Origin: Streptomyces sp. CB02058
GTDB taxonomy: Bacteria > Actinomycetota > Actinomycetes > Streptomycetales > Streptomycetaceae
Direction of reading: 5' to 3'
Assembly: GCF_001905505.1 (NCBI RefSeq)
Contig: NZ_LIPG01000002.1
Coordinates: 682,001-746,000, forward strand
DNA: 64,000 nucleotides
Below the pieces are notes generated by a model. The model was not told where the DNA came from, did not search any database, and worked only from the letters and a program-made list of their open reading frames with translations. The position numbers and the translations under genes were made by a program. Below, one piece after another: positions 50,183 to 64,000 of the stretch. How positions within the stretch are numbered: position 1 is the first letter of the stretch; each line of letters starts with the position of its first letter.

Positions 50183-50851
50183 CTACGCGGCGCGCCAGTT
50201 CCTCGAGAGCGCAGGTCCGAGGTGGTCCAGGTGGAGTTCGGTCATCGCCCTGAGCTCCTTCGCGCCCGCGTCCTTGCGCCGTCCCCACAGCTGTCCGCTC
50301 AGCCGCATCACTCCGGAGAAGGCGGCCACGGCGACCCGGGGGCGCGGGTCCGCCTCGACGTCCAGCCCCTCACGCTCCGCGATCAGCAGGGCGATCTGCT
50401 GCTCCAGTCCGATGTTGCGCCGGATGTGGGCGGAGAGCAGGGCCGGGGTCGATTCGATCATGCGATAGGTGCGGATCTGGAGCTCGATCACGGCCTCGTC
50501 GCCGATCTCCGCGGCCATCCCGTCCCAGGCGTCGGCGACGGCCCTGCGCATTGCCTCGAAAGGGGCCTCTGCCGCGGGACGTTGACGCAACTCCGCGAGG
50601 AACCGCGCGTCCACCGCGTCCTGTACGGCGAAGGCGGTGGCCTCCTTGTTCACGAAGTAGCGGAAGAAGGTGCGCTGGGAGACCCCGACGGCCTCGACGA
50701 TCTCGTCGACGGTGGTCCGGTCGTACCCCTGTGTGGTGAAGAGCCTGAGGGCGGCGTGCAGCAGGGCCTCACGGGTGCGTTGCTTCTTGCGCTCACGCAA
50801 TCCGACCCGGGTCCCTGCGAAGGGGGCCCCGGATGTCTGCCTGCGTGTCAC
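50183..50851 (-). CDS. TetR family regulator
   Basis: A 222-residue TetR repressor. The HTH is RKKQRTREALLHAALRLFTT, QGYDRTTVDEIVEAVGVSQR and TFFRYFVNKEATAFAVQDAV. The C-terminal domain is of the MftR-like type with IELQIRTYRMIESTPALLSA. It is divergent from an EmrB-type efflux gene with palindromic ACTGTC sites between them, so drug-responsive repression of the pump is the likely role. GTG start at 50851. Confidence 0.92.
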   Translation of the reverse strand: MTRRQTSGAPFAGTRVGLRERKKQRTREALLHAALRLFTTQGYDRTTVDEIVEAVGVSQRTFFRYFVNKEATAFAVQDAVDARFLAELRQRPAAEAPFEAMRRAVADAWDGMAAEIGDEAVIELQIRTYRMIESTPALLSAHIRRNIGLEQQIALLIAEREGLDVEADPRPRVAVAAFSGVMRLSGQLWGRRKDAGAKELRAMTELHLDHLGPALSRNWRAA

Positions 50852-50905
50852 GTGCCGGACCTCTTTTCGCGGTTTTTACCTGACCAGCCTACCTGTGATC
50901 TACGT

Positions 50906-50952
50906 GACAGTTACTGTCGCGTGAATTGGTTAGTCAACTGTCAGCGACTGTC
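50906..50952. promoter_or_regulatory. TetR operator region: GACAGTTACTGTC plus two ACTGTC repeats
   Basis: GACAGTTACTGTC (50906-50918) is a perfect 6-bp-arm palindrome, and ACTGTC recurs at 50937 and 50947. They lie between the divergent tetR and efflux genes and probably overlap both promoters. Confidence 0.7.
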
Positions 50953-50966
50953 ATAACGTCCTGTCC

Positions 50967-52577
50967 ATGACTAGTCAGACCACTGTCGAAAAGGCGCCGC
51001 GGGAGCCTGAAGACACCCTTGTTCCCGCACCGGCGAAGGGGCTGCGCGGCCACCCGTGGCTGACGCTCTTCGCCGTGGCCATCGGCGTGATGATGGTGGC
51101 GCTCGACGGCACGATCGTCGCGATCGCCAACCCCGCGATCCAGCAGGACCTCGGGGCGTCGCTCGCCGACGTCCAGTGGATCACCAACGGCTACATGCTC
51201 GCCCTCGCGGTCTCCCTGATCACCGCGGGCAAGCTCGGCGACCGCTTCGGCCACCGCCAGACCTTCCTGATAGGGATCGCGGGTTTCGCCGCCGCGTCGG
51301 CGGCCATCGGCCTCTCCGACAGCGTCGCCCTGGTGATCGTCTTCCGCGTGCTCCAGGGCCTCTTCGGCGCCCTGCTGATGCCTGCGGCGCTCGGACTGCT
51401 GCGCGCCACCTTCCCCGCCGAGAAGCTGAACATGGCGATCGGCATCTGGGGCATGGTGATCGGCGCCTCGACCGCGGGCGGACCGATCCTCGGCGGTGTG
51501 CTCGTGGAGCACGTCAGCTGGCAGTCCGTCTTCTTCATCAACGTGCCGGTCGGTGTGATCGCGCTCCTCTTCGGCCTCGTGATCCTCAAGGACCACCGCG
51601 CCGAGAACGCGCCGAAGTCCTTCGACATCGGCGGCATCGTGCTGCTGTCACAGGCGATGTTCTGCCTGATCTGGGCGCTGATCAAGGGCTCCGAGTGGGG
51701 CTGGGGCGACTGGAAGACGCTCGGGTTCCTCGGTGCCGCGCTCGTCCTGTTCTTCGTGTTCGCGCTCTCCCAGAAGAACGTCCGCGAGCCGCTCATCCCG
51801 CTGACGATGTTCCGCTCCCTGCCGCTGTCGGCCGGTGTGGTCCTGATGGTGCTGATGGCGTTCGCCTTCATGGGCGGCCTGTTCTTCGTCACCTTCTATC
51901 TCCAGAACGTGCACGGCATGAGCCCGGTGGACAGCGGTCTGCACCTGCTGCCGCTGACCGGGATGATGATCGTCGGCTCGCCGCTCGCCGGCGCCGCCAT
52001 CACGAAGTTCGGCCCGCGCGTGCCGCTGGTCGGCGGCATGGTGTCCGTCGCGATCGCCATGTTCGGCATGTCGCAGCTGACCATCGGCACCGGGACGCTG
52101 ACGATGTCGCTCTGGTTCGCGCTCCTCGGGTTCGGCCTCGCGCCGGTCATGGTCGGCGCCACCGAGGTCATCGTGGGCAACGCCCCGATGGAGCTCTCCG
52201 GCGTCGCGGGCGGTCTCCAGCAGGCCGCCATGCAGGTCGGCGGCAGCCTCGGTACGGCCGTCCTGGGAGCCGTCATGGCCGCCCAGGTCGACGCCAAGCT
52301 CGACGACAACTGGAAGGCCGCGGAGCTCCCGCCGGTCGACGCGGCGCAGCTGGACCAGGCGTCCTCCGCCATCAAGGTCGGTATGCCGCCGATCGCGCCG
52401 GGGACCCCGCCGGAGCTCGCGGTGAAGATCACGGACGTCGCCCATGACACGTTCGTGTCGGGCATGAGCTCCGCCTTCATGGTCGCGGGCATCGTCGCCG
52501 TGGTCGCGGCCCTCGTCGCCACGCTCACCAAGCGCGGCGCGAACGCCGAGGCCGGGATGGGCGCAGGGCACATCTGA
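50967..52577 (+). CDS. MFS multidrug exporter, DHA2 (EmrB/QacA) family
   Basis: A 536-residue, 14-helix transporter. Motif D1-type DGTIVAIANPAIQQDLGAS, motif A GKLGDRFGHRQTFLIG (about 90), and motif C GIWGMVIGASTAGGPILGG are present. It exports drugs by proton antiport. A C-terminal soluble insert with many Pro/Ala (KVGMPPIAPGTPPEL) precedes the last helix. Regulated in all likelihood by the divergent TetR. Confidence 0.94.
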   Translation: MTSQTTVEKAPREPEDTLVPAPAKGLRGHPWLTLFAVAIGVMMVALDGTIVAIANPAIQQDLGASLADVQWITNGYMLALAVSLITAGKLGDRFGHRQTFLIGIAGFAAASAAIGLSDSVALVIVFRVLQGLFGALLMPAALGLLRATFPAEKLNMAIGIWGMVIGASTAGGPILGGVLVEHVSWQSVFFINVPVGVIALLFGLVILKDHRAENAPKSFDIGGIVLLSQAMFCLIWALIKGSEWGWGDWKTLGFLGAALVLFFVFALSQKNVREPLIPLTMFRSLPLSAGVVLMVLMAFAFMGGLFFVTFYLQNVHGMSPVDSGLHLLPLTGMMIVGSPLAGAAITKFGPRVPLVGGMVSVAIAMFGMSQLTIGTGTLTMSLWFALLGFGLAPVMVGATEVIVGNAPMELSGVAGGLQQAAMQVGGSLGTAVLGAVMAAQVDAKLDDNWKAAELPPVDAAQLDQASSAIKVGMPPIAPGTPPELAVKITDVAHDTFVSGMSSAFMVAGIVAVVAALVATLTKRGANAEAGMGAGHI

Positions 52578-52631
52578 CCCCTCGGCCGCCCCCGGCACAC
52601 CGCCGGGAGTAACGCGTCAACACAGCGCACC

Positions 52632-52667
52632 CGACAGCCCCGCCGGACGGTACCGGCGGGGCTGTCG
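52632..52667 (+). terminator. Terminator after the efflux gene
   Basis: CGACAGCCCCGCCGG (52632-52646) pairs perfectly with CCGGCGGGGCTGTCG (52653-52667), 15 bp, with a 6-nt loop. Confidence 0.9.
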
Positions 52668-52775
52668 CCTATCAGGGTGGTCCGCTCCCCGGCCCCTTCC
52701 CCGTACGCTCCGGCGCAGGTCAGAGTGCGGACATGGCGAGTCGTCCGGCTCGCCCGACCACGGGGGTTCATCACC

Positions 52776-53204
52776 ATGCGTACGACCGTTCTCGCCGCCG
52801 CCCTGGCGGCCACCGCACTCGTCCCGGCCACCGCCCCGGCCTCCGGCGCCGCGCCGGGCACCGACCACCGGCACACGGGCCAGGAACGCACCCGCAGCGC
52901 GCCGCACTCCCCTCCGAAGGGGCTCGCGCCGTGCGGGGCGGGGCAGCTCTGCCTCTGGGCGGAACCCGACTTCACCGGGGCCGCCCAGGTCCACGAGCTG
53001 TCCGGCGTCGACATCGAGAGCTGCGTCCCGCTGCCGGCCGGCCGCCACGCCCAGGCACTCGTCAACCGCACCGGGCGGCCCGTCACCACCTACCAGTCCG
53101 CCGAGTGCGCCGAGACCGGCGAATTCGAGACGTACCCGGGCGGGGGTACCTGGGTGCCCCGGTCGCCCTACACGGTGCGGGCATTCAAGATCTGGGAGAG
53201 CTGA
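52776..53204 (+). CDS. Secreted peptidase inhibitor family I36 protein
   Basis: A 142-residue exported protein. The signal peptide MRTTVLAAALAATALVPATA ends near ASG-AA. The mature part has CGAGQLCLWAEPDFTGAAQV (about 50-69), CVPLPAGRHAQALVNRTGRP and CAETGEFETYPGGGTWVP, the Greek-key I36/SMI pattern with four cysteines. Such proteins may inhibit extracellular metalloproteases. No strong ribosome-binding site is apparent. Confidence 0.85.
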   Translation: MRTTVLAAALAATALVPATAPASGAAPGTDHRHTGQERTRSAPHSPPKGLAPCGAGQLCLWAEPDFTGAAQVHELSGVDIESCVPLPAGRHAQALVNRTGRPVTTYQSAECAETGEFETYPGGGTWVPRSPYTVRAFKIWES

Positions 53205-53404
53205 GGGGGTAGGACCGCGTCCGGCCCGCCTGCGGGCAGGCGGCGCGCCGGTTCGGTCCTGCGGGCGCGTGCGGCGCGCTGAGTGGTTTGCAGGGCGCCG
53301 GGCCGGTCCTGCGGGTGCGTGCCTCGCCCCGGGCCCCCAGGCAGGCCCGGCTCCGGGCCGAGCGTCCTGCGGGTGCCGCGCCGCCCGGCCCGGGGCCGGG
53401 AACG

Positions 53405-53444
53405 CCGGAGGGCGGCAGGGCCGTGAAGCCCTGCCGCCCTCCGG
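53405..53444 (-). terminator. Terminator of aceE
   Basis: CCGGAGGGCGGCAGGGC (53405-53421) and GCCCTGCCGCCCTCCGG (53428-53444) form a perfect 17-bp stem with a 6-nt loop, 38 bp past the aceE stop in its direction. Confidence 0.92.
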
Positions 53445-53482
53445 GCGCTCTCCCGCCGCTCTCCCGCGGGACCGCGTGTTCC

Positions 53483-56224
53483 TTACGCGTCGCCGCCGGC
53501 CGGGCCGGGACCCGCCGCGGCCACGTCCAGCAGCTCGTAGCGGTCCAGCGCGGTCTTCAGCGCCGAGCGGTCGATCCTGCCTTCCTTCGCCAGCTCGGTC
53601 AGCACCGCCAGCACGATCGACTGCGCGTCGATGTGGAAGAAGCGGCGCGCCGCGCCCCGGGTGTCGGCGAAGCCGAAGCCGTCCGCACCCAGCGACTGGT
53701 AGGCACCCGGCACCCAGCGCGAGATCTGGTCCGGCACGGAACGCATCCAGTCCGAGACCGCCACGAACGGGCCCTCGGAGCCGGACAGCTTCCGCGTCAC
53801 GTACGGGACCTGCTGCTCCTCCTCCGGGTGGAGCAGGTTGTGGCGCTCCACCTCCACGGCCTCACGGCGCAGCTCGTTCCAGGAGGTCGCCGACCAGACG
53901 TCCGCCTTCACGTTCCACTCGTCGGCCAGGATCTGCTGGGCCTCGACCGCCCACGGGACCGCCACGCCCGACGCCAGGATCTGGGCCGGGATCTGGCCCT
54001 TCTCGCCCGCGCGGTAGCGGTGGACACCCTTGAGGATGCCCTCGACGTCCACGTCGGCCGGCTCGGCCGGGTGCTGGATCGGCTCGTTGTAGACGGTGAG
54101 GTAGTAGAAGACGTCCTCGTTCTCGTCGGGGGCCCCGCCGTACATACGGCGCAGACCGTCCTTGACGATGTGCGCGATCTCGTAGCCGAACGCCGGGTCG
54201 TAGGAGACGCAGGCCGGGTTCGTCGAGGCGAGCAGCTGCGAGTGGCCGTCCGCGTGCTGGAGCCCCTCACCGGTCAGCGTCGTACGCCCGGCGGTCGCAC
54301 CCAGGACGAAACCGCGCGAGAGCTGGTCGGCCATCTGCCAGAACTGGTCACCGGTGCGCTGGAAACCGAACATCGAGTAGAAGACGTACACCGGGATCAG
54401 CGGCTCGCCGTGCGTGGCGTACGCCGAACCCGCGGCGATCAGCGAGGCCGTGCAGCCGGCCTCGGAGATGCCGTCGTGCAGCATCTGGCCCGTCGGCGAC
54501 TCCTTGTAAGCGAGCAGCAGCTCACGGTCCACCGACTCGTACTGCTGGCCGAGCGGGTTGTAGATCTTCGCACTCGGGAAGAACGCGTCCATACCGAAGG
54601 TGCGGTACTCATCGGGCGCGATCAGCACGAAACGCTTGCCGATCTCCTTGTCCCGCATGAGGTCCTTCAGCACGCGGACGAACGCCATGGTCGTGGCGAT
54701 CGACTGCTGACCCGAACCCTTCTTCGCGGTCGCGTACGCCTTCTCGTCCGGGAGGGGCAGCGGCTTCGCGCGCACCACACGGGTCGGGACGTAACCGCCC
54801 AGACCCTTGCGGCGGTCGTGCATGTACTGGATCTCTTCCGAGTCGCGGCCCGGGTGGTAGTACGGCGGGTTGCCGTCCTCCAGCTGCTTGTCCGCGATCG
54901 GGATGTGCAGACGGTCCCGGAAGCGCTTGAGGTCGTCGGCCGTGAGCTTCTTCATCTGGTGGGTCGCGTTGCGGCCCTCGAAGTTCGGGCCGAGTGTCCA
55001 GCCCTTGACCGTCTGCGCCAGGATGACCGTCGGCTGGCCCTTGTGGGCCTTGGCCGCCGCGTACGCCGCGTAGACCTTGCGGTGGTCGTGGCCGCCGCGC
55101 CCCAGGTGCAGGATCTGGTCGTCGGACATGTCCTTGACCATCTCGCGCAGCCGCGGGTCGTCACCGAAGAAGTGGTCGCGGATGTACGCGCCGGTCTCGG
55201 TGGCGTACGTCTGGAACTGGCCGTCCGGGGTGGTGTTCAGCTTGTTGACCAGGATGCCCGTGCGGTCCTGCGCGAGCAGCGGGTCCCAGGTGCGGTCCCA
55301 GACCAGCTTGATGACGTTCCAGCCGGCGCCCCGGAACTGGGACTCCAGCTCCTGGATGATCTTGCCGTTGCCCCGGACCGGGCCGTCCAGGCGCTGGAGG
55401 TTGCAGTTCACCACGAAGGTGAGGTTGTCCAGACCCTCACGGGCGGCGATCGAGAGCTGGCCGAGCGACTCCGGCTCGTCCATCTCGCCGTCACCGAGAT
55501 ACGCCCAGACGTGCGACTTGGAGGTGTCGGCGATGCCGCGCGCCTCCATGTAGCGGTTCATCCGCGCCTGGTAGATCGCGCCGAGCGGGCCGAGGCCCAT
55601 CGAGACGGTCGGGAACTCCCAGAAGTCGGGCATCGACCGCGGGTGCGGATAGCTGGACAGGGCGTGTCCGGCCTTCGACTTCTCCTGGCGGAAGCCGTCG
55701 AGCTGCGCCTCGCTGAGCCGGTCGAGCAGGAAGGCGCGGGCGTAGATGCCGGGGGACGCGTGTCCCTGGAAGAAGATCTGGTCGCCGCCCAGACCGTCGT
55801 CCTTGCCCCGGAAGAAGTGGTTGAAGCCCACGTCGTACAGCGAGGCGGAGGAGGCGAAGGTGGCGATGTGGCCGCCGACGCCGATCCCGGGGCGCTGGGC
55901 GCGGGAGACCATCACCGCGGCGTTCCACCGGGTCGCGTTGAGGACCTTGCGCTCGATCTCCTCGTCGCCGGGGAAGAACGGTTCGTCCTTCGTGGCGATC
56001 GTGTTCACGTAGTCGGTGCTGCGCATCTCCGGCACGGCGACGCGCTTCTCCCGCGCGCGCTCGATGAGCCGGAGCATCAGGTAGCGGGCCCGCTCACGGC
56101 CGCGCTCGTCGACGGCGGCGTCGAGGGAGTCGAGCCATTCCTGGGTCTCTTCAGGATCGAAGTCCGGGACCTGGCTCGGAAGGCCGCCAATGATGATCGG
56201 GTTGCGATCGGATCCGGAAGCCAC
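53483..56224 (-). CDS. aceE: Pyruvate dehydrogenase E1 component, homodimeric (AceE)
   Basis: A 913-residue thiamine diphosphate enzyme. The ThDP/Mg motif starts at residue 244 ([10 protein letters not shown], then [20 protein letters not shown]). [20 protein letters not shown] and the catalytic histidine regions [13 protein letters not shown] and [16 protein letters not shown] are present. It decarboxylates pyruvate and passes acetyl to the lipoyl E2 of the PDH/ODH supercomplex. E2 and E3 are not adjacent, as is normal in actinobacteria. GTG start has GAAGGA 5 nt upstream. Confidence 0.97.
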
Positions 56225-56705
56225 GCTGTTCCTTCGCTGTTCGGTGCTGCACTTCGGGGCCTGGTTGCGGGGAAACGTACCCCCGTGGTGGCCGCGTACG
56301 CCGCCACCATCGTGTACCGCGAGGACCTAAACGTCATCTCTACTGTGGGGTAACACAAGGTTCCCGGACGCCGTGTTTGGGCACGAGTGTCAGCAGCGTG
56401 CGGGCGCCCCTGCCCAAACCGCAACCATACGCCCAACCCGGCCAAGCGTTCCCAAAGCCCGTTCGAATCCGAATGGCGGAGCGAAACGGCATAAGCTGAG
56501 GAAGGACGTAAAGGGTCCGGACACCATTCCCGGCCCCGCAGGAGACATGCCGGAAGTTGCGGCGACGTGGCATGGAACGTCACCGTTTAGGCGGTCTCGG
56601 ACGCCGGGTACTTGCGCGATTCGCCGAGCCCGTGTGGACTACGGCCAATGCCCCGCGCACGCGCGTGGCTGAAGCATTTTCCGAAACATGATCAGGAGGC
56701 AACCC
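56225..56705. other. Long divergent intergenic region between aceE and DUF3052
   Basis: 481 bp with the promoters for both genes. On the minus strand TTACCC and TTAGGT (17-bp spacing, plus-strand 56328-56356) could be an aceE promoter. For the DUF3052 gene GGAGG lies 7 nt before its GTG. The region is less GC-rich than its neighbours. A GTTCGAATCC at 56459-56468 looks like a tRNA T-loop but no tRNA folds around it. Confidence 0.45.
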
Positions 56706-57143
56706 GTGAGCGCGACCGCGGACCACGCGGAGGAACGGACCAACACGGCCGCGAGGCTTGGGTTCGAACCCGGACAGGTGGTCCAGGAGATCGGCTACGA
56801 CGACGACGTCGAGCAGGAGCTCCGTGAGGGCATTGAGGCCACAATCGGCCAGGATCTCGTCGACGAGGACTACGACGACGTCGCTGACGTCGTCCTGCTG
56901 TGGTTCCGCGACGAGGACGGCGACCTTACGGACGCGCTGGTGGATGCCATTGGTCTGATCGAGGACGGCGGGGCGGTCTGGCTGCTGACGCCCAAGACCG
57001 GCCGAGACGGATACGTCGAGCCGAGCGACATCAACGAGGCTGCCCAGACAGCTGGTCTTGCCCAGACCAAGAGCATCAACGCGGGCAAGGACTGGACGGG
57101 CAGCCGTCTGGTCACCCCCAAGGGGGCCAAGGCCAAGCGCTGA
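56706..57143 (+). CDS. DUF3052 protein
   Basis: A 145-residue acidic protein. LGFEPGQVVQEIGYDDDVEQ, ELREGIEATIGQDLVDEDYD, DVADVVLLWFRDEDGDLTDA and GGAVWLLTPKTGRDGYVEPS followed by DINEAAQTAGL match DUF3052, a family conserved in actinobacteria next to aceE. Its function is not established. GTG 56706 with GGAGG 7 nt upstream is preferred to ATG 56688. Confidence 0.92.
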   Translation: MSATADHAEERTNTAARLGFEPGQVVQEIGYDDDVEQELREGIEATIGQDLVDEDYDDVADVVLLWFRDEDGDLTDALVDAIGLIEDGGAVWLLTPKTGRDGYVEPSDINEAAQTAGLAQTKSINAGKDWTGSRLVTPKGAKAKR

Positions 57144-57162
57144 GCTCTTCCGACACCACCGG

Positions 57163-57195
57163 GGCCCCCGGACAGCATCACGCCGTCCGGGGGCC
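57163..57195 (+). terminator. Terminator after the DUF3052 gene
   Basis: GGCCCCCGGAC (57163-57173) pairs with GTCCGGGGGCC (57185-57195), perfect 11-bp stem, 11-nt loop, followed by TT. Confidence 0.88.
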
Positions 57196-57312
57196 TTCGT
57201 ACGCGCCGGTGCGGACCTGCCCGGGCTCCCCGCGGAACGCTGCGTAGGGTGGGTGTCACCCGGACGGCCCAGGCCGGGGAAGTGGTGACGTTTGCGAAGG
57301 GACGCGTTTCAC

Positions 57313-57771
57313 ATGGCGATCGAGGTCGGCACGCAGGCTCCGGAATTCGAACTGAAGGACAACCACGGGCGGACCGTGAAGCTGTCCGACTTCCGCGGTG
57401 AGAAGAACGTGGTGCTGCTCTTCTACCCCTTCGCCTTCACCGGGGTCTGCACGGGCGAGCTCTGCGCGCTCCGCGACGAGCTGCCGCAGTTCGAGAACGA
57501 CGACACCCAGCTGCTCGCGGTGTCCAACGACTCCATCCACACCCTGCGCGTCTTCGCCGAGCAGGAGGGCCTGGAGTACCCGCTGCTGTCGGACTTCTGG
57601 CCGCACGGCGAGACCTCGCGGGCGTACGGCGTCTTCGACGAGGACAAGGGCTGCGCGGTGCGCGGCACGTTCATCATCGACAAGGACGGCGTGGTCCGCT
57701 GGACCGTCGTCAACGGGCTGCCGGACGCGCGTGACCTGAACGACTACGTCAAGGCGCTCGGCTCGCTCTGA
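57313..57771 (+). CDS. Peroxiredoxin (AhpE-like, with a second cysteine)
   Basis: A 152-residue thioredoxin-fold peroxidase. The peroxidatic Cys46 lies in [20 protein letters not shown]; Cys51 follows after four residues, the spacing of resolving cysteines in BCP/PrxQ. Mycobacterial AhpE lacks that second Cys, as far as I recall. It reduces peroxides in the cytosol. It sits between aceE/DUF3052 and the Ter genes, which fits a stress role. No clear RBS. Confidence 0.93.
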
Positions 57772-57846
57772 CGGGCCTCCCGGAGCCGGTGAACCCCTGA
57801 TTCCGGGGGTCGGCGGCCTCCGGATCCGGGGATCACCCCGCGGTTG

Positions 57847-57871
57847 CCTGCCAAAAGCCTGTTTTGGCAGG
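57847..57871 (+). promoter_or_regulatory. Perfect 10-bp inverted repeat upstream of terD
   Basis: CCTGCCAAAA (57847-57856) and TTTTGGCAGG (57862-57871) flank a 5-bp centre. A -10-like TAGGAT lies at 57883-57888, so the repeat covers the -35 region. It is AT-rich at the centre, unlike a Streptomyces terminator, and best fits an operator, though a terminator for the peroxiredoxin gene is possible. Confidence 0.65.
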
Positions 57872-57964
57872 GAACCGGTCACTAGGATCCAATCGTTGAT
57901 CCGATGCCAACGCACGACGGGGGCGACTGGTGTCTGCCGGCCCTCTCAAACTTTTGGAGGACTC

Positions 57965-58540
57965 GTGGGAGTCAGCCTCAGCAAGGGCGGCAACGTCTCG
58001 CTGACCAAGGCCGCGCCGAACCTCACCGCGGTCATCGTCGGTCTGGGCTGGGATGCCCGGACGACCACCGGCGGAGACTTCGACCTCGACGCCAGCGCTC
58101 TGCTGACGAACGCCGAGGGCAAGGTCGCCAGCGACGGGAATTTCGTCTTCTTCAACAACCTCAAGAGCCCCGACGGCTCGGTCGAGCACACCGGTGACAA
58201 CCTCACCGGTGAGGGCGAGGGCGACGACGAGGTCATCAACGTCAACCTGGCCGGCGTCCCGGCCGACGTCGACAAGATCGTCTTCCCGGTCTCGATCTAC
58301 GAGGCCGAGAGCCGCCAGCAGAGCTTCGGCCAGGTCCGCAACGCGTACATCCGCGTGGTCAACCAGGCGGACAACAGCGAGCTCGCGCGCTACGACCTCA
58401 GCGAGGACGCGTCCACGGAGACCGCCATGGTCTTCGGCGAGCTCTACCGCAACGGCGCGGAGTGGAAGTTCCGTGCCATCGGCCAGGGGTATGCCTCGGG
58501 TCTGCGCGGCATCGCGCAGGACTTCGGCGTCAACGTCTGA
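57965..58540 (+). CDS. terD: TerD family stress protein 1
   Basis: A 191-residue TerD domain protein. It begins [20 protein letters not shown], with calcium-binding loop [14 protein letters not shown] and [20 protein letters not shown], then [17 protein letters not shown] and [13 protein letters not shown]-like ending [20 protein letters not shown]. TerD proteins bind calcium and act at the membrane with TerC-type partners in tellurite, phage and envelope stress. GGAGG lies 5 nt before the GTG. About 75% of residues match the next paralogue. Confidence 0.96.
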
Positions 58541-58578
58541 GCCGGTCCGGGGGGACCTCCGGACACAGCAAGCTCCAT

Positions 58579-58615
58579 CGCGTCCGGCGCCGCACCCTGT
58601 GCGGCGCCGGACGCG
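58579..58615 (+). terminator. Hairpin between the two terD genes
   Basis: CGCGTCCGGCGCCGCA (58579-58594) pairs perfectly with TGCGGCGCCGGACGCG (58600-58615), 16 bp, 5-nt loop. It should end or attenuate transcription, so the second terD may have its own promoter. Confidence 0.88.
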
Positions 58616-58690
58616 CTCGGCAGAGCGCCCCGCGTCCGGAAGGCGCCGTGCCACCAGAAAGACCGTCCATCGACTCGGGGAGGACACACC

Positions 58691-59266
58691 ATGGGCGTCA
58701 CGCTCGCCAAGGGAGGCAATGTCTCCCTCTCCAAGGCCGCACCCAATCTCACTCAGGTGCTGGTCGGGCTCGGCTGGGACGCACGATCCACGACGGGAGC
58801 CGACTTCGACCTCGACGCCAGCGCACTGCTGTGCCAGTCGGGCCGGGTCCTCGGCGACGAGTGGTTCGTGTTCTACAACAACCTCACCAGCCCCGACGGT
58901 TCCGTCGAGCACACCGGTGACAACCTCACGGGTGAGGGCGACGGCGACGACGAGTCCGTCATCGTGAATCTCACCCAGGTCCCGGCTCACTGCGACAAGA
59001 TTCTTTTCCCTGTCTCGATCCATGAAGCCGACAATCGTGGGCAGACATTCGGTCAGGTCAGCAATGCCTTCATCCGGGTGGTGAACCAGGCGGACGGACA
59101 GGAGCTCGCGCGCTACGACCTCAGCGAGGACGCCTCCACGGAGACGGCGATGATCTTCGGTGAGCTGTACCGCTATGGCGGGGAGTGGAAATTCCGTGCA
59201 GTCGGACAGGGGTACGCGTCAGGGCTCCGAGGCATCGCTCTAGACTTCGGGGTCAACGTTTCGTAA
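58691..59266 (+). CDS. terD: TerD family stress protein 2
   Basis: A 191-residue paralogue of the preceding protein, likely a tandem duplicate: [60 protein letters not shown] and [20 protein letters not shown]. It has a Cys in the calcium-loop region that copy 1 lacks. GGGGAGG lies before the ATG. It is followed by the DUF475 gene after 71 bp. Confidence 0.96.
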
Positions 59267-59337
59267 AGCCGCGCACGGCGCGGGGGAGCCCCGTACACAA
59301 CCGGGGGAGACCCGTTACATACATGATGGGGTAGCCA

Positions 59338-60474
59338 GTGCTTCTGAAAACCTTCGGCTGGTCGTTCGCGGTCACCGCGATCGGCCTGGTCGCAGCGGTG
59401 TTCTACGGGGGGTGGCAGGCATTCGGCATCGTCGCGATCCTGTCGATCCTCGAGATCTCGCTGTCCTTCGACAACGCGGTGATCAACGCCGGGATCCTGA
59501 AGAAGATGAATGCCTTCTGGCAGAAGATCTTCCTCACCATCGGTGTGCTCATCGCCGTCTTCGGTATGCGGCTGGTCTTCCCCGTCGTGATCGTGGCCGT
59601 CAGCGCGCAACTGGGTCCGATCGAGGCAATCGACCTCTCGTTCAACGACCCTGACAGGTACAAGGAACTCGTGACGGACGCCCATCCGTCGATCGCCGCC
59701 TTCGGTGGCATGTTCCTGCTCATGATCTTCCTGGACTTCATTTTCGAGGACCGGGACATCCAGTGGCTGCGCTGGATCGAGCGCCCGCTCGCCAAGCTCG
59801 GCAAGGTCGACATGCTGTCGGTCTGCGTCGCCCTGATCGTCCTGCTGGTCTCGGCCATGACCTTCGCGACCCACGCCCACCAGCACGGCGGCGGACACGC
59901 CGACAAGGCGTCGACCGTCATGCTCTCCGGCATCGCGGGTCTGATCACCTACCTCGTGGTCGGCGGTCTCTCCGGATTCTTCGAGAACAAGCTCGAAGAG
60001 GAGGAGGAGCGCGAGCAGGAGGCCGAGGAAGAGGCCAAGAAGGCCGGCAAGCCGGTCTCCGGGGTGCTCCTCGCGGGCAAGGCCGCGTTCTTCATGTTCC
60101 TCTACCTCGAGGTCCTCGACGCGTCCTTCTCCTTCGACGGTGTCATCGGCGCCTTCGCCATCACCAACGAGATCGTGCTGATGGCCCTCGGCCTCGGTAT
60201 CGGCGCCATGTACGTCCGTTCGCTCACCGTGTACCTGGTCCGCCAGGGCACCCTGGACGACTACGTCTACCTGGAGCACGGCGCGCACTACGCGATCGGC
60301 GCCCTCGCGGTCATCCTCCTCGTCACCATCCAGTACGAGATCAACGAGCTCATCACCGGTTCCGTCGGGGTCATCCTCATCGGCTGGTCCTTCTGGTCCT
60401 CGGTGCGCCGCAACAAGGCCATCGAGGCCGCCGGCGGCTCCGATTCCAAGGCGGAAGTCTCCTCCGGGGTGTGA
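59338..60474 (+). CDS. DUF475/TerC-like integral membrane protein
   Basis: A 378-residue protein with about nine helices. Acidic motifs LEISLSFDNAVINAGILKKM (about 40-60) and YLEVLDASFSFDGVIGAFAI (about 255-275) are a repeated E..DNA/D pattern seen in TerC-superfamily metal transporters. A charged loop LEEEEEREQEAEEEAKKAG lies in the middle and a His-rich THAHQHGGGHADK in one loop. TerC-type proteins may export manganese or couple with TerD at the membrane. Position right after two terD genes supports this. Confidence 0.9.
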   Translation: MLLKTFGWSFAVTAIGLVAAVFYGGWQAFGIVAILSILEISLSFDNAVINAGILKKMNAFWQKIFLTIGVLIAVFGMRLVFPVVIVAVSAQLGPIEAIDLSFNDPDRYKELVTDAHPSIAAFGGMFLLMIFLDFIFEDRDIQWLRWIERPLAKLGKVDMLSVCVALIVLLVSAMTFATHAHQHGGGHADKASTVMLSGIAGLITYLVVGGLSGFFENKLEEEEEREQEAEEEAKKAGKPVSGVLLAGKAAFFMFLYLEVLDASFSFDGVIGAFAITNEIVLMALGLGIGAMYVRSLTVYLVRQGTLDDYVYLEHGAHYAIGALAVILLVTIQYEINELITGSVGVILIGWSFWSSVRRNKAIEAAGGSDSKAEVSSGV

Positions 60475-60502
60475 CCCGGTAGGGATTGAGGAACGCTCTC
60501 TC

Positions 60503-60567
60503 TGCGGGGCGGCCCACAGCGGCGGTTCTCCGGGAACACCCGGACCCGGCCCGGTGGCCGCCCCGCA
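60503..60567 (+). terminator. Long-loop hairpin after the DUF475 gene
   Basis: TGCGGGGCGGCC (60503-60514) pairs with GGCCGCCCCGCA (60556-60567). The 41-nt loop holds a smaller stem (CCGGG / CCCGG). It probably ends the terD-DUF475 transcript. Confidence 0.75.
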
Positions 60568-60647
60568 GTGACGTGCGGGGCGTGTGCGGCGTGTGAGCCG
60601 TGCACGTGGGGTCGGGCGGTACTACCGGGACACATGTGGGGGTTGGG

Positions 60648-61382
60648 ATGGCCTTCTGGGACGGCCTGTTCGCGGGACGGGCGGCACAGTTCGAGTCGGG
60701 TAACTCCGCGACGAACTCCATCGTGCTCTCCCGGCGCAACGCGACGGTCTCGCTCACCAAGCAGGGCGCGCTGTCCGGCAATCTGCGCGTCAACCTGTCG
60801 TGGCGGATGCGTACGTCGGACATCGGGGGCAGGTCGCGGCAGAGCGGCCGACTGCTGCGCCCGCTGAAGCTCTTCCAGCCCGACGTCGTCCAGGCCCACA
60901 CCCAGGGCATGGTCAACGTCGACCTGGACCTGGGCTGCATGTACGAGCTGAAGGACGGCACCAAGGGCGTCGTACAGCCGCTGGGCAACCTCATCGGCGA
61001 TCTGAACAGCGCGCCCTACATCAGGCTCAGCGGGGACGACCGCTTCGGTGCGCCGTCCGGCGAGACCGTCTATGTGAACCTCGACAAGCGCGACGAGATC
61101 AAGCGTCTGCTCTTCTTCGTCTACATCTACGACCAGACCCCGGCCTTCGACCGTACGCACGCCAAGGTGACGCTCTATCCGGGCAACGGCCCGCGCATCG
61201 AGATCGAGCTGGACGAGCGCGCCCCGCAGGCACGCTCCTGCGCGGTGTTCACCGTGGACAACACCAAGGGCGAGCTCGTCGTGCGCCGCGAGGTGAAATT
61301 CGTGTACGGCTTCCAGTCGGAGCTGGACCGGATGTACGGCTTCGGCATGCAGTGGGGACGCGGCTACAAGACGCGGGCCTGA
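60648..61382 (+). CDS. TerD-like fold protein, divergent member
   Basis: A 244-residue protein. After [20 protein letters not shown] comes [20 protein letters not shown] and [13 protein letters not shown], then [20 protein letters not shown] and [20 protein letters not shown], the TerD-like beta-sandwich seen in Ter-system proteins of the tellurium/bacteriophage group. The canonical DFDLDAS loop is VDLDLGC. The calcium site seems partly retained (Asp residues). GGGGTTGGG precedes ATG 60648; a GTG at 60636 would add four residues. It ends 33 bp before the end of the convergent TerD-like gene. Confidence 0.8.
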
Positions 61383-61415
61383 GTGCCTGCCATGAAGGGC
61401 CGCCGTAGCGCCGGT

Positions 61416-62315
61416 TCAGGACCGGAGGAACTGCGGGCCCTGCGGGGGGAGCACGAAATTCGGGTCGGCGGCGTGCGCCGCCGCCGCTGCGGGCTGGGGA
61501 TAGCCGTAGGCGGGCCGGGCCGCCGCCGAGGGCTGCGGGTAGCCGTAGGCGGGCTGAGGGGCCCCGGTGGGCTGCTGCGGGTAGCCGTAGGCCGGCTGGG
61601 GCGCCACGGACGGCTGCGGGTAGCCGTACGAGGGCTGCTGGTGCTGGATCGTGGCTTGGCTGTCGGGCGCGGTCTGCGGGGCGTGCGCCTGGGTGGCATC
61701 GGGAGCGGGCGGGAAGGACGCCTGAGCGTCGGGCGCGGGCTCGGCCGGGGGGCCGGGCTCGGAAGCCGCCTCCGCCTCGTCCACCGAGATCCCGAAGGCG
61801 GTGGCCAGCCCGATGAGGCCCGTCGGGTAGCCCTGGCCCACCGCGCGGAACTTCCAGCCGTCGCCCCGCCGGTACAGCTCGCCGCAGATGACCGCGGTCT
61901 CCTCGCCGGTCTCCGCCCTCACGTCGAAGACCGCGAGCGGCTCACCGTCGGCCGACGCCGCGTCGTACAGCGATATGCGCAGATCACGCACCTGCTCGAA
62001 CGGCGCCTCGTCGCAGGAAGCGGCGATGACCACCTGGTCCACGGACGGGTCGAGCGCGGAGAGATCCGCCTCGATCGTGTCCGTGAGGCCCTCGGGCGCA
62101 CTGCGCTTGGGAAGCCGCCGCACGAGACCCGAGGGATGGCGCGGCTGGTTGTAGAAGACGAAGTCCTCGTCGGAACGCACCCGTCCGGAGGAACCGAGCA
62201 GCAGGGCGGAGGCGTCCACATCCGGGACCCCGGCGCCCGGGGTCCAGCGCAGCACGGCCCGTACGGCCATGGCGTCGAGAGGGACGTTCGAGCCCTTCAG
62301 CATCGCGTGCGTCAT
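61416..62315 (-). CDS. TerD family protein with a YGYPQP repeat tail
   Basis: A 299-residue protein. The TerD domain fills residues 1-190 ([60 protein letters not shown]). The tail is Pro/Gln/Ala-rich with four YGYPQ units and ends [13 protein letters not shown]. Such low-complexity tails may be flexible or self-associating. ATG 62315 is chosen; ATG 62324 would add three residues (MTA). The frame continues upstream through the 57-bp repeats as a 19-residue periodic sequence, which I consider non-coding. Confidence 0.88.
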
Positions 62316-62649
62316 GGCGGTCATCCTGCCTGCTGGTGGGGCGCGCGGACAACGCGGGGGTGCGAACCAGTAGGCCAGGACGTGTTCGCGCGGGGCACGC
62401 AGGCGCGCCGCGAGGGCTGTGAGATACCCGACGTACCTCACAGCCCGCAGGGCACGCAGCGGCGCCGCGAGGGCTGTGAGATACCCGACGTACCTCACAG
62501 CCCGCAGGGCACGCAGCGGCGCCGCGAGGGCTGTGAGATACGTCGGGGTTACCCGAAGTTCATACGGGTGGGGAACCTCCGACACCTGTCCGAACGTACT
62601 ATTACCGGCCACACGTTGTCCGGTCTATCAGGCAGTACGGGGGAATCAC
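62316..62649. other. Divergent region between TerD-like and CitE-like genes
   Basis: 334 bp. It contains the tandem palindromic array (62404-62541) and, after it, the promoter and RBS of the lyase gene. No tRNA or small ORF with an RBS was seen. Confidence 0.7.
62404..62541. repeat. 57-bp tandem repeat with internal palindromes
   Basis: GGGCTGTGAGATAC begins at 62414, 62471 and 62528, a strict 57-bp period. Two full units carry an inverted repeat GGGCTGTGAG / CTCACAGCCC (62414-62446, 62471-62503); the third keeps the left arm only and then diverges. Copies 1 and 2 are nearly identical across the unit. Each unit would fold as a hairpin on either strand. Confidence 0.92.
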
Positions 62650-63810
62650 ATGCGTCATTTCGGGCACATCTCGCCCGCTGTCCGGGAGGGTCTGTTCTTC
62701 AGGGAGCCGTGCGAATTCAGCGCGGACTCCCCCTCCCGCATGCTGTCGGCGGCGCTCGGCGCCACCCTCTACAGCCCCGCGACCCGGCCCAGGCTGGCCG
62801 ACGACGTGATCAAGCAGGCCGGGCTCGGAGTCGTCTCCATGGTGCTCTGCCTGGAGGATTCCATCGACGACGCCGAAGTGGTCGGGGCCGAGGCCAATCT
62901 CGTCCGGCAGTTCGCCGACCTGGAGACGCGGGCCGTCGATCTGCCGCTGCTCTTCATCAGGGTCCGTGAGCCGGATCAGATTTCCGACCTCGTGCGGCGG
63001 CTCGGAAGCTCCGTCCGATTGTTGTCCGGATTCGTACTTCCCAAATTCACCGAAGAGCGGGGAGAGCTGTTCCTGGAAGCCCTCACCGCGGCCGAAGCGG
63101 ACAGCGGACACCGGCTGTTCGCGATGCCCGTGCTCGAATCACCCGAGCTGCTGCACCTGGAGACCAGGGGCGAGACCCTCCAGGGAATCGCCCGCACCGT
63201 CGACAAGTACCGCGAGCGGATCCTGGCGCTGCGGCTCGGCGTCACCGACTTCTGCTCCGCCTACGGTCTGCGCAGGGCGCCCGACATGACGGCGTACGAC
63301 GTCCAGATCGTCGGCGCCGTCATCGGGGACGTCGTCAACGTGCTGGGCCGGGCGGACGGCACGGGCTTCACCATCACCGGACCGGTCTGGGAGTACTTCC
63401 GCCTCCAGGAGCGCATGTTCAAGCCCCAGCTGCGCCGCAGCCCCTTCATGGGGCAGGCCGAGGAACTGCGCACCACGCTCATCGAGCACGACCTCGACGG
63501 ACTGCTGCGCGAGATCGAGCTCGACCGGGCCAACGGACTGCTCGGCAAGACCTGCATCCACCCGTCCCACGTCCTGCCCGTGCACGCGCTGTCGGTCGTC
63601 AGCCACGAGGAGTACAGCGACGCGCAGGACATCCTGCGGCCCGAGCGGGGCGGCGGCGGAGTGCTGCGTTCCGCCTACACGAACAAGATGAACGAGGTGA
63701 AGCCGCACCGTGCCTGGGCCGAACGGACCCTCCAGAGGGCCGAGGTCTTCGGTGTGGCACAGGAGGACGTCGGCTTCGTGGAGCTCCTGGCCGCGGGCGT
63801 GACGGACTGA
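62650..63810 (+). CDS. CitE/HpcH-like C-C lyase, Ter-associated
   Basis: A 386-residue TIM-barrel protein of the HpcH/HpaI aldolase-citrate lyase beta group. It starts MRHFGHISPAVREGLFFREP, then SMVLCLEDSIDDAE (about 60-73) with the metal-binding acidic cluster, LRLGVTDFCSAYGL (about 195) and LGKTCIHPSHVLPVHAL (about 300). The branch with a FxHIS-type start is known in Ter gene neighbourhoods next to phosphoribosyltransferase genes, where a nucleoside-like small molecule has been proposed. GGGGA lies 5 nt before the ATG. Confidence 0.9.
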   Translation: MRHFGHISPAVREGLFFREPCEFSADSPSRMLSAALGATLYSPATRPRLADDVIKQAGLGVVSMVLCLEDSIDDAEVVGAEANLVRQFADLETRAVDLPLLFIRVREPDQISDLVRRLGSSVRLLSGFVLPKFTEERGELFLEALTAAEADSGHRLFAMPVLESPELLHLETRGETLQGIARTVDKYRERILALRLGVTDFCSAYGLRRAPDMTAYDVQIVGAVIGDVVNVLGRADGTGFTITGPVWEYFRLQERMFKPQLRRSPFMGQAEELRTTLIEHDLDGLLREIELDRANGLLGKTCIHPSHVLPVHALSVVSHEEYSDAQDILRPERGGGGVLRSAYTNKMNEVKPHRAWAERTLQRAEVFGVAQEDVGFVELLAAGVTD

Positions 63811-63929
63811 ACGCGTCGACGGGCGGACGGGGCCGCCGCCCCACGGGTGAGCCCGCCGGGCGCACGACCGACCGGATGACCGACAGGGTGGCCGACCGGA
63901 CGACCGGGCGGACACGGGAAGAAGAGGCA

Positions 63930-64000
63930 GTGGACGTGGAGTGGTCGGGTAACTGGGTCGCGGGGCGGCTCGGGGTCGAGCTCGCCGGTGACGGGGAGAT
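63930..64000 (+). CDS. Probable phosphoribosyltransferase of the Ter module, N-terminal fragment
   Basis: A GTG after GAAGAAGAGG opens VDVEWSGNWVAGRLGVELAG, then DGE, to the window end. WSGNWVAGRLGVEL resembles, from memory, the N-terminus of PRTase-domain proteins that follow the CitE-like gene in Streptomyces Ter clusters. Only 23 codons are visible, so this rests mainly on context. An ATG at 63877 in the same frame is a possible earlier start but has no RBS. Confidence 0.5.
   Translation, partial: MDVEWSGNWVAGRLGVELAGDGE

Follow-up and report, generated by a model that had tools for sequence, protein, structure and literature searches.

A near-genus-wide ECF-type promoter and a lineage-specific palindrome upstream of a Streptomyces terD gene

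Sequence comparison indicates that the deeply conserved regulatory element upstream of the first terD gene is an ECF-type promoter located just downstream of a conspicuous palindrome, and not the palindrome itself. The latter appears to be largely a lineage-specific add-on to a near-genus-wide promoter, and its job is unproven. We consider the chances even that the dyad is a DNA element of the terD promoter, most likely a candidate operator which spans the -35 elements of two overlapping promoters and whose regulator is encoded elsewhere.

Results

The terD gene and its neighbours

The palindrome is situated between a gene for a peroxiredoxin of the AhpC/TSA family (57313-57771, plus strand; Pfam PF00578) and the first terD gene (57965-58540, plus strand) of the window, i.e. 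the whole stretch of 64,000 nucleotides which was analysed. The peroxiredoxin gene directly precedes terD in the window and was upstream of it in 117 of the 117 loci examined. The TerD domain of the terD product (Pfam PF02342, E 1.5e-86) and synteny identified the gene as the orthologue of SCO2368. This assignment is also supported because seven loci have the letters published for the upstream region of sco2368 unchanged within the peroxiredoxin gene that precedes terD. A paper by Daigle et al. from 2015 is said to deal with SCO2368 and calcium. A perfect 17-bp hairpin (58579-58615, unstranded), probably a terminator, follows the first terD and precedes the second. Because of this hairpin the promoter probably serves mainly the first terD.

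The earlier note had seen no regulator encoded nearby, and a Pfam scan agreed: none of the eight neighbouring ORFs (56688-63807) matched a regulator family, one of them being without any match. The nearest regulator noticed by eye was a TetR-like ORF (50183-50851) beside a transporter-like ORF. The two are divergent (50183-50967) and the intergenic GACAGTTACTGTC is a likely operator of this pair; no likeness of the dyad to this intergenic region was seen. Two further features of the neighbourhood are recorded here. The ORF at 60600-61379, flanked by the DUF475/TerC gene and the minus-strand terD, had no Pfam match at E 0.001, and a tandem repeat (62389-62541; period 57, 2.7 copies, 96% matches) is present upstream of the minus-strand terD-like gene.

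The palindrome exceeds chance

The perfect 10-bp inverted repeat, CCTGCCAAAA-GCCTG-TTTTGGCAGG with a 5-nt centre, extends from 57847 to 57871 (unstranded) and TAGGAT (57883-57888) follows it after 11 bp, both as originally described. What had been missed is that folding prolongs the arms by CGGTT/AACCG past one G-G mismatch. The extended dyad (57841-57877, unstranded) reaches into the -35 element.

The palindrome at 57847-57871 is real and beyond chance. A search for perfect inverted repeats with arms of at least 10 bases and loops of 3-8 returned 20 rows at 13 places in the 64-kb window. Thirty dinucleotide shuffles of the window yielded a mean of 1.3 such repeats and not a single one with at least five A/T per arm. 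Among the 13 places only the palindrome had five A/T in a 10-bp arm; one other place also had five A/T, but in an arm of 21-23 bp. The 16-base pattern TGCCAAAA-N5-TTTTGGCA (57849-57869) was without a second match in the window at up to three mismatches (shuffle mean 0.03). The own genome of 8.3 Mb contained it once exactly and at one further place with three mismatches (reversed control, 3), and CAAAA-N5-TTTTG once exactly and at four more places with one mismatch (reversed control, 2). A genome scan for the repeat had been proposed in the earlier note; with one exact copy in 8.3 Mb it spoke against the operator of a multi-site regulon, and this candidate was dropped. Matches with two mismatches in four genomes (L009, L012, L022 and L026) were related palindromes of the type TGCCAGAAC-N3-GTTCTGGCA, elsewhere in the genome and not beside the terD promoter core.

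A conserved promoter directly downstream of the palindrome

Directly 3' of the palindrome is the element GGGAACC-NN-TCACTAGGATC-N4-CGTTGATC (57870-57901). Its first 20 bases (GGGAACCNNTCACTAGGATC, at most two mismatches) had matches in 186 of the 199 Streptomyces genomes, compared to 3 of 199 for the reversed pattern; the position of these matches at terD was confirmed for the 37 genomes read, in which the core precedes terD. The conservation was then expressed for 117 loci not chosen by the repeat, 80 of them named loci and 37 from further genomes, the 80 being the best 80 of 577 confirmed relatives. The promoter core was recognised in 115 of the 117 and was absent in L058 and L077. The 115 loci correspond to 112 unique sequences; since this set is anchored on the core, all fractions of 112 describe loci with a recognisable core.

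GGGAAC (57870-57875, plus strand), the predicted -35 of an ECF-type promoter, was present in all 112 unique sequences; its first two bases are within the right arm of the repeat. The predicted -10, CGTTGA (57894-57899, plus strand), follows 18 nt after GGGAAC and was complete in 101 of 112. Measured against the published table, the GGAAC of the -35 and a CGT[C/T] -10 at a distance of 17-18 nt were both found. CGTC, the usual -10 of sigma-E, was not, as all 112 sequences have CGTT. Therefore, we claim an ECF type and do not claim sigma-E itself.

We take the consensus motifs BTGACN/TANNNT to be those of HrdB. TAGGAT (57883-57888, plus strand), inside the ECF spacer, is a candidate -10 of such an HrdB-type promoter, and 108 of 112 sequences conformed to TANNNT. 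The candidate -35 is CTG (57859-57861, plus strand), the BTG of BTGACN, in the loop of the palindrome; the hexamer would cover 57859-57864 and leave an 18-nt spacer to TAGGAT. CTG was at -11 in 75 of the 112 unique unselected sequences compared to 26 at the next best offset, BTG in 77 versus 28. Only the BTG part of a BTGACN -35 at 18 nt was seen, in those 77 of 112. A single A at -16 was kept in 88 of 112 without explanation. Passages of a study of S. avermitilis give BTGACN/TANNNT for its promoters (PMC8780764), and passages on S. griseus list spacers of 12 nt as the commonest, then 18 and 19 nt (PMC8914203). From the CTG spacing together with these consensus motifs and spacers we read two overlapping promoters, an ECF (sigma-E-like) promoter GGGAAC-N18-CGTT and a probable HrdB promoter CTG-N21-TAGGAT, both of which would fire.

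A classical sigma-70 promoter was not found at 57700-58000, nor a known RNA family at gathering threshold in 52000-64000. The element had no second match in the window at up to three mismatches, and three upstream regions of other ter genes in the window reached at best 12-13 of its 26 specified bases. The earlier note had located the repeat at the first terD promoter and had considered it a strong regulator site controlling the Ter island. The location held: conservation places the promoter region there, with the repeat against the core in 24 of 24 matches, and an operator is the most likely role of a site on the terD promoter region. Control of the whole island did not hold, given the 17-bp hairpin after the first terD and the lack of a second element match in the window.

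terD paralogues and the sigma-E connection

The two boxes of the ECF-type promoter recurred at other terD genes. When the upstream regions of 20 more terD paralogues were inspected, 15 contained GGAACC-N16/17-CGTT at a distance of up to about 83-108 nt from the gene, and 0 of 20 had it on the opposite strand; the 20, encoding 79-83% identical proteins, were hand-picked from a longer list. Their spacers vary and differ from that of the terD locus, which would fit a role of the two boxes alone at these genes. Among three paralogue upstream regions outside the window GGAACC-N17-CGTT was present in L177 and, by eye, in L180, but not in L179. Genome-wide, GGAACC-N17-CGTTR had 15 matches (reversed control, 1), of which two precede terD genes. 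With a plausible start codon at a distance of up to 220 nt in only 5 of the 15, no regulon was derived from these matches. Another terD gene of the own genome (L223), with an 80% identical protein, carried GGAACC-N17-CGTTA (G000:C1:138886-138913) 64 nt before the ATG. Upstream of the terD paralogues L179, L204, L205, L207 and L213, which are without GGAACC-CGTT, another palindrome was seen, CTACAGTG(C/T/A)TGTAG with a T-rich stretch after it; its distance to the terD start or to the end of the sequence fetched is 72-131 nt. Presumably, it resembles the TACA..TGTA operators of the BlaI/MecI type.

According to passages of PMC6767563, SCO2368 is a target of sigma-E in ChIP-seq and the protein was reported to be up with vancomycin. 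The search of that study was for AAC and TC boxes, and passages of it place the sco2368 site 317 bp upstream of the start codon (PMC6767563). The counterpart in the window (57607-57635, plus strand) is inside the peroxiredoxin coding sequence and GAG replaces AAC. As no more than 19 of 117 loci have AAC there, the published site was ruled out as the conserved promoter. In S. avermitilis, starts with a non-TANNNT -10 cluster with one sigma factor's own promoter; this group includes a 'tellurium resistance protein', PspA and a penicillin-binding protein, the terD gene being unspecified in the passages concerned (PMC8780764).

The palindrome marks mainly one lineage

The core of the palindrome, CAAAAGCCTGTTTTG with one mismatch allowed, was present in 27 of 199 Streptomyces genomes, the own genome included (reversed pattern, 4 of 199), and with 27 genomes only it was rejected as a general terD feature. 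Twenty-four of the 27 matches stood directly before the terD promoter core, three elsewhere (L114, L116, L127). A tree of the two genes, taken in its printed order and branch support aside, had the repeat in one contiguous group. Fourteen members of this lineage belong to the loci not chosen by the repeat, and 11 of them had at least 9 of the 11 pairs; the exceptions were L029 (7 of 11), L030 (4 of 11) and L036, in which the dyad is re-registered by one base. None of the other 103 loci attained 9 of 11, the best having 8. Outside the group, 8-9 pairs were present in L108, L118 and L125, three loci selected by pattern.

DNA element or RNA hairpin

The dyad was directly against GGGAAC in 24 of the 24 matches at a terD promoter, a fixed register to which the overlap between the right arm and GGGAAC contributes by itself. 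The gap to the stop codon of the peroxiredoxin gene spanned 17-236 nt across 23 lineage sequences (23 of 31 lineage rows; L029, L030, L036 and duplicates were left out). The loop GCCTG was found in 13 of the 14 unselected members and was as conserved as the arms; all four loop-side A-T pairs were present in 11 of 14. Across 25 lineage sequences (25 of 31 rows; L036 with its shifted dyad and duplicates were left out) the loop-side A-T pairs were broken in 5 cells and never replaced by G-C, while the outer pairs change; 13 of these 25 rows were fetched by a pattern containing part of the dyad, so that the A-T count is partly selected. The register fixed to the promoter, the conservation of the loop and of the stretch from -18 to -2 (1.69 bits on average, versus 0.65 from -60 to -25), and the loop-side A-T pairs which are never exchanged for G-C favour a role of the dyad as DNA. 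As expected of an operator, the dyad is at the promoter in fixed register with conserved bases; several copies in the genome and, among the eight neighbouring ORFs scanned, a regulator gene were both lacking. The dyad covers both -35 elements: the genus-wide CTG lies within its loop, and GGGAAC begins inside its right arm, with two bases in common.

The main rival explanation, possible yet in our view rather doubtful, is that the dyad is the 3'-end hairpin of the peroxiredoxin mRNA, a U-poor, I-shaped terminator or a stop for Rho or exonuclease, which overlaps the terD -35 in a compact intergenic region. In its favour, a 45-nt stretch folds at -24.8 kcal/mol (z -4.9), and 12 of 23 lineage sequences have the start of the hairpin 17-30 nt past the stop codon. 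Streptomyces often has U-poor structured 3' ends, which amount to 353 of 1427 in S. clavuligerus according to passages of PMC8269248. However, the register of the dyad follows the promoter and not the stop codon, and the window has a separate fold upstream at about 57779-57824. A T run is missing and 0 terminator-like sites were detected at 57700-58000, and an intrinsic terminator with a GC-rich stem and a T run was discarded on these grounds. Across the genus the position folded no better than a control stretch (mean z -0.58 versus -0.68 in 112 sequences; p<=0.05 in 20 of 112 versus 14 of 112). A genus-wide hairpin at the dyad position is not supported by these figures.

The base changes point both ways. 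In the lineage 91.3% of cells were paired versus 89.4% in column shuffles (1 of 500). T-A stood for G-C in one pair (window and L006), one pair was reversed (L029) and one was G-U, and L118 and L125 from outside the lineage stay paired with different bases. Double-change cells numbered 3 (7 of 500 shuffles), and the covariation score was matched in 17 of 500. Counted by pairs, however, double changes were 2, both of them outer pairs (42 of 500 as high), and further pair types 3 (262 of 500), and the loop and the loop-side A-T pairs were mostly kept as sequence.

This best-kept part of the dyad, the A/T centre with the loop, is accounted for by a second explanation, which we regard as unlikely. 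A4-N5-T4 would be a UP-element-like pair of A/T tracts one helical turn apart, which binds the alpha subunits of RNA polymerase or bends the DNA, and the outer pairing would be incidental. By the positions of UP-elements the tracts would be at about -51 to -48 and -42 to -39 if the start is near 57904. L029 and L030 pair poorly yet partly keep A/T. The matching GC arms outside the tracts, with 91.3% of cells paired overall, are left unexplained, and most of the genus does without the tracts.

A third explanation, to which we give still less credit, denies the dyad a function of its own: it would be symmetric by descent and held in place by the flanking -35 elements and shared ancestry. Its restriction mainly to one lineage and arm mismatches in several members fit such a history. 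Yet in the same 14 unselected genomes the flank from -60 to -25 has diverged to a mean of 0.65 bits, whereas the stretch from -18 to -2 has kept 1.69 bits.

Discussion

We propose the following mechanism for the candidate operator. Stress sigma factors of the sigma-E group would drive the ECF-type terD promoter and HrdB would supply another start for basal transcription. A single Streptomyces lineage, to which the own genome belongs, has turned the sequence across both -35 elements into a dyad of 25 to 37 bp. This dyad would work at the DNA level by serving as operator for a dimeric regulator encoded elsewhere. Once bound, that protein would lie over the CTG -35 of the loop and contact GGGAAC, and could shut, or help, both promoters at once. 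Tentatively, the dyad may then be a single-site operator on a near-universal dual promoter through which one regulator would control a calcium/tellurite-type TerD both at basal level and under envelope stress.

Several points weigh against an operator. A transcription factor with one exact site in 8.3 Mb and no adjacent gene would be out of the ordinary. Most of the genus lacks the dyad, and the conservation of the loop may stem only from the CTG of the -35. The pairing evidence is weak, and the -10 is CGTT where most published sigma-E sites have CGTC.

A literature search returned no paper with the four stretches of the element's letters searched for and none which joins terD, Streptomyces, an inverted repeat and an operator. 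The data offer a better-supported promoter for the SCO2368-type terD, which sigma-E ChIP lists as a target and for which the published site lacks conservation, and one lineage-specific operator candidate. They also suggest that more than one Streptomyces terD gene is under an ECF-type promoter. If true, the response to cell-envelope stress, more than a tellurite island, is where the TerD proteins of Streptomyces belong.

Comparison with known systems

U-poor structured 3' ends are usual in Streptomyces, as passages of PMC8269248 and PMC12207403 state. Like the HS-U-lack class in passages of PMC8269248, the dyad has a stable stem, a small loop and 1-2 U in the next 8 nt. Unlike that class, it has loop-side A-U pairs and a conserved loop sequence, and an RNA end at this position is only putative (PMC8269248). 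At 30°C, 40 nt of the window with their 3' end at the 10-bp stem or one base beyond it folded at -17.7 and -19.1 kcal/mol, respectively. The limit of -23 kcal/mol given for HS-U-lack in passages of PMC8269248 was passed only with the extended stem (-27.4 kcal/mol).

The second promoter resembles the HrdB-type BTGACN/TANNNT in its TANNNT (108 of 112), its BTG (77 of 112) and its 18-nt spacer, as far as passages of PMC8780764 and PMC8914203 define these features; unlike the consensus in the former, the terD -35 is without the AC after BTG (PMC8780764). With the SigR promoters, GGAAT-N18-19-GTT as quoted in a passage of PMC9205884, the ECF-type promoter shares the spacing class and a GTT in the -10. 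In contrast to SigR promoters as quoted there, it has GGAAC and not GGAAT in 112 of 112 sequences (PMC9205884). With the ECF promoters of S. coelicolor sigma-E in passages of PMC6767563 it has in common GGGAAC as -35 and 17-18 nt from GGGAAC to CGT. Some of the sigma-E sites listed in those passages, among them sco1023, sco5310 and sco4133, also have CGTT (PMC6767563). Two traits set the terD promoter apart from the sites in the same passages: its -10 is CGTTGA whereas CGTC predominates there, and its spacer is strongly conserved with a TANNNT embedded in it (PMC6767563).
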